Shown here piece by piece: positions 48,401 to 50,510 of a DNA stretch of 64,000 bases (position 1 is its first letter; the number at the start of each line of letters is the position of its first letter). Origin of the DNA: Candidatus Calescibacterium sp. (GTDB lineage Bacteria > Calescibacteriota > Calescibacteriia > Calescibacteriales > Calescibacteriaceae); contig JANXBU010000001.1 in NCBI GenBank assembly GCA_025060505.1, positions 124,001-188,000 of the forward strand, written 5' to 3'. The notes under the pieces were generated by a model. It did not search any database and was not told the origin of the DNA. It saw nothing but the letters and a program-made list of their open reading frames with translations. The position numbers and the translations under genes are program-made.

Positions 48401-48482
48401 AGGATCAAAAAGATCGTATAGGCCGTTGTTATATCTCTGAGACTTTTTATTGAATATTTTTGGTATTCTACTATCATTATTC

Positions 48483-48739
48483 TGCTGTGTCCAATTATTT
48501 AATAGGATAATATTGACCATATAGAGCGGAGCTGGAAAGATTATAACAAAGACTTAGTATTTGAGTAGCGTGAAGTTTGAGAACATACGGAAGGAGCTAA
48601 CCAAGTTATGATAACGAGCATGTTTTTAAGTGGTGGTGTGGGTATGTTGGTGAGTTGAGTTGATGTTATGGTTATGTAAGTGGGTTATAGGGGTGTGTGG
48701 GTGTGTTGGAGGATATTGAATCCTTTATTGGACACAGCA
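48483..48739. mobile_element. Non-autonomous insertion element (MITE-like, probably derived from the IS5 family/IS903 group)
   Basis: TIRs TGCTGTGTCCAAT / ATTGGACACAGCA (13/13), flanked by 9-bp direct repeats TCATTATTC at 48474-48482 and 48740-48748; internal remnant SWKDYNKDLV. Confidence 0.85.
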
Positions 48740-48821
48740 TCATTATTCACTCAGATGACAAAAAATTCATTCTAAGACTTTTTTGTAGTTCTCGGTTGTT
48801 AAAATATTCAATTTGATTACA

Positions 48822-50510
48822 ATGAAGCTAATAGGAGAAATTCTGCAAGACTTGGGAGTTCCAAAAGAAAAAGTGGATGAAGCTCTAAGAATTCAGGAAG
48901 AAAAACCAAACTATGGAAGGCTTGGGGAAATACTCATAAAAATGGGAGTTATAAACCATGTTATCCTTGCAAAAGCTCTTTCTGCGCAGTTTGGAATTGA
49001 ATTAAAAGAAAAAATCAACAAAGAAGAAGTTTTAGATGAGGTAACGAAAATTTTCCCTCCTTATATACTTAAAGATTCCGGATTTATAGTGTTAAAGGAA
49101 CCAAATTCTGAATATGTTTCTATTGTTCTTAGTGATCCAGAGAAATCTTATCTTATCTCAGACTTGCAGAAGAAGTTTAAAAAGGTGCTCAAATTATTCA
49201 TCGCGCCCTCTGATGAGATAGAAAGAGTTATAAATGAAATTTATGGATTCGGTGATACAATGGAAGTATCCAGAGAAGTTGAAAAAGCTGAAGAAATATT
49301 TTCATCAGACGAAATAATAGAAACGACACGAGATATTCTTGAGGAAAAAGGGGAAGCACCAATAATAAGGTTTGTCAACGCTTTGTTTTTTCAGGCAGTT
49401 AAGCGAAGAGCATCTGATATACACATAGAACCAGCTGAAACTGAAACGGTAGTTAGAATGAGAATAGATGGAGTTTTGCATGAGGTAATAAGAGTTAATA
49501 AAGTCCTTCACGAACCAATCGTTTCAAGAGTAAAAGTTATATCAAGGCTAGACATAGCAGAAAAAAGACTTCCTCAGGACGGAAAAATAAAACTTAAAGT
49601 TGCGGGAAAAGATATAGATGTAAGAGTTTCGACATTACCTACTGTCTTTGGAGAAAGAGTTTCTCTGAGAATTCTAGATAGAACGGCAACCATACTGAAA
49701 ATAGAAGAGCTTGGAATGGAAGAAGATATTATCCAGAAGATCAAGAACCTTGTAAAAAGAACATATGGTATGATTCTTATAACGGGACCAACAGGTTCAG
49801 GAAAAACAACAACGCTTTATGCATGTCTTTCTGAAATAAATTCTCGTGAGATAAACATAATCACCATAGAAGATCCAATAGAGTATCAGCTCAAAGGAAT
49901 AAACCAGATTCAGGTCAATCCTAAGGTTGGTCTGACTTTTGCGGCAGGCTTAAGATCTATTTTGAGACAAGACCCGGATGTAGTTATGGTTGGAGAGATC
50001 AGAGATGGAGAGACGGCTTCAATTGCTATACATGCTGCACTTACAGGACATCTTGTTCTTTCTACATTACATACTAATGACGCTCCAAGTGCTATTACAA
50101 GGCTTATTGATATGGAAATTGAACCGTATCTTATATCCTCTGCTGTTTTTGCTACTTTGGCTCAAAGACTTGTAAGAAAGATATGTGAAAAATGCAAGAA
50201 AAAATATAAACCAGACACTATGGAACTTGAAGTTCTATCTATTCCATCTGGAGAACTAGATTTCGCCTTTAGGGGAACAGGATGCGACGAATGTTTCGGA
50301 ACTGGATACAAAGGCAGAATTGGTATATTTGAACTTTTTGTCATAGATGATGAAATAAGAGAACTCATAAATCAAAAATCAGATTCTGTTAAATTGAAAA
50401 ATGCCGCTATATCTAAGGGTATGAGAACATTACGTGAAGATGGTATACTCAAAATAAAAAAAGGTATAACAACAATTCAAGAGGTAGCAAGGGTGATACA
50501 GGAAAGTTAA
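48822..50510 (+). CDS. GspE/PilB-type secretion or type IV pilus assembly ATPase
   Basis: GPTGSGKTTTLYACL, EDPIEYQLKGINQIQVN, VGEIRDGETASIAIHAALTGHLVLSTLHTNDA, CxxC zinc motifs. Confidence 0.95.
   Translation: MKLIGEILQDLGVPKEKVDEALRIQEEKPNYGRLGEILIKMGVINHVILAKALSAQFGIELKEKINKEEVLDEVTKIFPPYILKDSGFIVLKEPNSEYVSIVLSDPEKSYLISDLQKKFKKVLKLFIAPSDEIERVINEIYGFGDTMEVSREVEKAEEIFSSDEIIETTRDILEEKGEAPIIRFVNALFFQAVKRRASDIHIEPAETETVVRMRIDGVLHEVIRVNKVLHEPIVSRVKVISRLDIAEKRLPQDGKIKLKVAGKDIDVRVSTLPTVFGERVSLRILDRTATILKIEELGMEEDIIQKIKNLVKRTYGMILITGPTGSGKTTTLYACLSEINSREINIITIEDPIEYQLKGINQIQVNPKVGLTFAAGLRSILRQDPDVVMVGEIRDGETASIAIHAALTGHLVLSTLHTNDAPSAITRLIDMEIEPYLISSAVFATLAQRLVRKICEKCKKKYKPDTMELEVLSIPSGELDFAFRGTGCDECFGTGYKGRIGIFELFVIDDEIRELINQKSDSVKLKNAAISKGMRTLREDGILKIKKGITTIQEVARVIQES

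Follow-up and report, generated by a model that had tools for sequence, protein, structure and literature searches.

A 257-bp miniature insertion sequence in Candidatus Calescibacterium, probably a deletion derivative of an IS5-family element related to those of Aquificaceae

IS903-type elements of the IS5 family, among them ISAte1 and ISAba10, are represented by the NCBIfam model NF033579 (transpos_IS5_2), and the terminal inverted repeat (TIR) of IS903 is GGCTTTGTTGAATAAA. Their miniature counterparts include MITEAba12, a 113-bp bacterial MITE ascribed to ISAba12 and flanked by 9-bp target-site duplications (TSDs) (PMC6382973). The element that we describe here resembles MITEAba12 in being small and non-coding, in having IS-like ends and 9-bp duplications, and in being ascribed to a transposase acting in trans (PMC6382973). 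The two are different elements in different hosts, however; in our case the deletion junction is readable, and the host assembly yielded no resident parent. Tn3-derived miniature elements (TIMEs) are reported to form mosaic non-autonomous elements (PMC4133298). Two chimeras of 439 and 445 bp in our host appear likewise to be mosaic mobile units built from miniature elements, although they are IS5-derived rather than Tn3-derived.

The element lies in a 64-kb stretch of Candidatus Calescibacterium DNA (the window, contig C27 of the assembly), where direct reading of the sequence places it at positions 48483-48739 (257 bp), beginning with TGCTGTGTCCAAT and ending with ATTGGACACAGCA. Its left TIR (48483-48495, plus strand) and right TIR (48727-48739, minus strand, ATTGGACACAGCA as written on the plus strand) match at 13 of 13 positions, both by eye and by script, and two exact copies of the 9-bp TSD TCATTATTC flank it at 48474-48482 and 48740-48748 (9/9 by script). 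The first-pass annotation had described a MITE-like element with these features, and its reading was exact. We searched the whole window exhaustively for pairs of 13-bp inverted repeats that lie within 3 kb of each other and are flanked by a 9-bp direct repeat; this element alone emerged, and 20 mononucleotide shuffles of the window yielded no structure of this type. The length falls within the range of MITEs (about 50-600 bp), and the element holds no intact transposase; the longest transposase remnant that we read in it spans 16-18 codons.

Alignment with full-length ISs resolves the element into two parts. The first ~77 bases (48483-48559, plus strand) correspond to the 5′ end of the parent IS, including what is left of the transposase N-terminus (IDHIERSWKDYNKDLV, 48512-48559), and share 86-90% identity with G043:C20 and G040:C40. 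The remaining ~184 bp (48556-48739, plus strand) correspond to the 3′ end of the parent, with a remnant of the transposase C-terminus and the right end, and match the nearest of the other copies, on contigs C32, C60, C84 and C104 of the assembly and in an Aquificaceae IS (G040:C63), at 93-97% identity. Both ends of the element therefore align to ISs of Aquificaceae MAGs, and the region that had been described as degenerate is the 3′ terminus of the IS. The two parts meet at 48556-48559 (plus strand) in a 4-bp microhomology, AGTA (5′ ...GACTTAGTA / 3′ GAGAGTATGTGAG...), which is also found in the copy on C104. An open frame at 48512-48565, previously compared to the start of an IS5-family transposase, is indeed present, yet the transposase N-terminus accounts for IDHIERSWKDYNKDLV only; the last two residues of the frame (FE) and its stop are out-of-frame 3′ sequence from beyond the junction. 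Judging from these alignments, the 257-bp element is a MITE that formed when an IS5-family element lost internal sequence by deletion.

Contig C84 of the assembly carries an IS fragment with a partial gene for a DDE_Tnp_1/IS5_2 transposase, and using this fragment as a query we recovered relatives in Aquificaceae MAGs. These include near-full-length ISs of 925, 925, 986 and 992 bp with left ends of the type TGCTGTGT(C/T)(C/T)AAT, their left TIR matching the left end of the 257-bp element with one mismatch. ISs with the same kind of ends as the element thus have near-complete representatives in Aquificaceae. No intact transposase gene with such ends was found among the host's own contigs, in an assembly that is 86% complete and interrupted at these repeats. 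IS5_2 matches on contigs C44 and C26 were rejected as parents, as they lack a matching TIR pair. At L082 (G000:C44:2225-3040), we observed another IS5_2-like transposase, which is interrupted by a single in-frame stop and lacks paired TGCTGTGTCC ends.

A 226-aa fragment of the parent transposase scores 190.6 bits against NF033579 (IS5_2), compared with a curated cut-off of 140, and the better-preserved Aquificaceae fragments also exceed this cut-off and match Pfam DDE_Tnp_1. Perfect and mutually different 9-bp TSDs, as expected for IS5/IS903-type elements, flank six elements with the same or near-identical ends (in the window and on C104, C32, C60, C71 and C93). In the five near-full-length Aquificaceae copies that we examined, no 9-bp TSD could be recognised, so its length is taken from the MITEs and from distant relatives, such as a plasmid-borne IS in Vogesella (L129:885-1920) that has a 9-bp TSD and the TIR GGCTTTGTTGCACAAATC, as against TGCTGTGTCCAAT here. 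The NF033579 score and the TSD of the Vogesella relative support the earlier assignment to an IS903/IS5 type at the level of the group, but not for IS903 itself. The TIR resembles the IS903 end in part (xGCTxTGT...). Because the TIR differs, and because the parent transposase shares only ~31-34% identity with the plasmid relatives that are best among those annotated, ISAte1 and ISAba10, derivation from IS903 itself is not supported. In contrast to members of the IS903-type group, the 257-bp element itself has no transposase.

A search of the element's own genome (2.28 Mb, 115 contigs) for further copies returned nine matches. One of them, a 333-bp copy on contig C104 (G000:C104:24100-24432; L025:9101-9433), aligns with the window copy through the left part, the deletion junction and the right part, yet lies in a different flank with its own 9-bp TSD, GGTAGTTTT. 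Its extra length lies in the right end, ~42 bp of which are repeated, with ~33 bp of unrelated filler between, all within a single TSD pair. These two copies, on C27 and C104, are the only ones of the exact 257-bp deletion type. As they share a junction at two unlinked sites with different TSDs, the deletion must have arisen before one insertion or both, and the element has moved to at least two places in the host genome. The earlier proposal of an IS deletion derivative is in this way supported by a second copy, inserted at another site.

The genome also holds a second miniature element with nearly the same ends. The chimeras on C60 (445 bp, L024:10316-10760, TSD GAAATCATA) and C32 (439 bp, L023:7282-7720, TSD GTTTGTGTA) have their right end in common with the 257-bp element, while on the left they consist of a separate MITE of ~122 bp, here joined to the IS 3′ half. 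Since the chimera occurs at two sites with separate 9-bp TSDs, it moved as a unit. The ~122-bp MITE also stands alone on C71 (TSD ATATCTATC), on C93 (TSD GAAAATTAC) and on C19, where the TSD is damaged, and it occurs on C108, where it is cut by the contig end; the members of this 121/122-bp family (L020:1501-1621, L021:1392-1513, L016:1393-1513 and L022:587-661) have ends nearly those of the 257-bp element. Four diverged relatives, 75-84% identical to the 122-bp MITE, are present on C20, C25, C28 and C5. A separate TIR-like match on C28, with one mismatch and within an apparent coding region, was taken as chance.

None of these elements was detected in the four other genomes of the host phylum examined, all of one family, whereas 18 of the 61 Aquificaceae genomes searched gave matches, some of them weak. 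In the Aquificaceae MAG SKYG61 (G044), the 122-bp element has 33 matches of weak to moderate strength. In the host assembly, parent-like IS pieces are confined to two short contigs, C84 (L005) and C10 (L006). Along its full 527 bp, C10 matches the Aquificaceae MAG SKW97 at 99.8% identity, a purC fragment on C84 has 98% protein identity to the Aquificaceae MAG SKYG33, and both contigs have a GC content of 0.40-0.42, compared with 0.34-0.38 in the MITE-bearing stretches. Given this identity and GC content, C84 and C10 look like cross-binned Aquificaceae DNA, and we do not read them as evidence of a resident parent. They are also a warning that cross-binning may affect short contigs of MAGs that carry ISs. 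The MITE-bearing window contig, by comparison, carries a gene common to the host's relatives (57% identity). The parent IS thus appears to reside in a different bacterial phylum that shares the host's habitat, and its distribution makes it likely that the IS/MITE system was transferred from Aquificaceae. We found no literature on MITEs and IS5 elements in Aquificales or hot springs.

Together, these findings make it very probable that the 257-bp element is a non-autonomous miniature IS (a type I MITE) that arose by an AGTA deletion in an IS5-family element. What is seen directly is the pair of ends, the duplications, a junction common to two unlinked sites and the near-full-length relatives; movement in trans and acquisition from Aquificaceae are inferred. 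An IS5-family element of ~0.9-1.0 kb with TGCTGTGTCCAAT-type ends would have lost its interior when a single deletion joined two AGTA tetranucleotides. With both ends kept, the reduced copy would remain mobilisable by an IS5_2-type DDE transposase in trans, which would make a 9-bp staggered cut in the target and so give rise to the duplication. The occurrence of the chimera at two sites with separate duplications suggests that this transposase may also recognise the left end of the 122-bp element together with the IS right end. The system itself would have been acquired from Aquificaceae living alongside the host, and not inherited within the host's own lineage. A broader scenario, in which the host harbours several parentless MITE families that depend, or once depended, on the IS of cohabiting Aquificaceae, with miniature elements crossing phyla and forming chimeras that move as units, is a tentative possibility. 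The 257-bp element is an ordinary parasitic element of a known kind. It offers a clean, readable case of the birth of a bacterial MITE, in which an IS5-type element underwent a single microhomology deletion and the product then transposed, and it suggests that ISs pass between Aquificaceae and a phylum that is sparsely sampled.

We considered whether a single full-length IS inserted at this site and was then deleted in place, so that the 257-bp form never moved. Such decay is common in this IS family, with most Aquificaceae copies internally deleted or interrupted by stops, but it leaves unexplained the identical junction and different 9-bp TSD at the unrelated C104 site. This copy, together with four other elements that have their own perfect TSDs, argues that the element transposed, and we regard decay in place as extremely improbable. 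A MITE belonging to a long-standing IS/MITE family of the host, whose likeness to Aquificaceae reflects old shared ancestry of the family rather than transfer, is less easily set aside, as the four diverged relatives of the 122-bp MITE indicate that the system is not wholly recent. They also suggest that contact with Aquificaceae was not only recent. Against an old host family stand its absence from the four other genomes of the phylum and the 93% identity of the MITE 3′ part to an IS of another phylum, which together make this history unlikely.

The position of the element raises a further alternative to a simple parasitic MITE. It is intergenic and directly upstream of a GspE/PilB-type ATPase gene starting near 48813-48823, where it might have been recruited as a promoter, terminator or insulator. 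Promoter-like sites are not above shuffled expectation, however, a search for a terminator found none, and single-strand folding is only mildly better than in shuffles. Function of the element for the gspE-like gene is consequently not supported by these sequence predictions, and recruitment seems very improbable. The upstream E2-like gene is present in three relatives (G001, G003 and G004; 57% identity), where its neighbour is a cold-shock-like gene and not gspE; given this difference in gene order, the insertion site has no orthologue there, and no empty site was seen. Six of the seven elements checked are clear of long ORFs, as expected for neutral insertions under selection against gene disruption.
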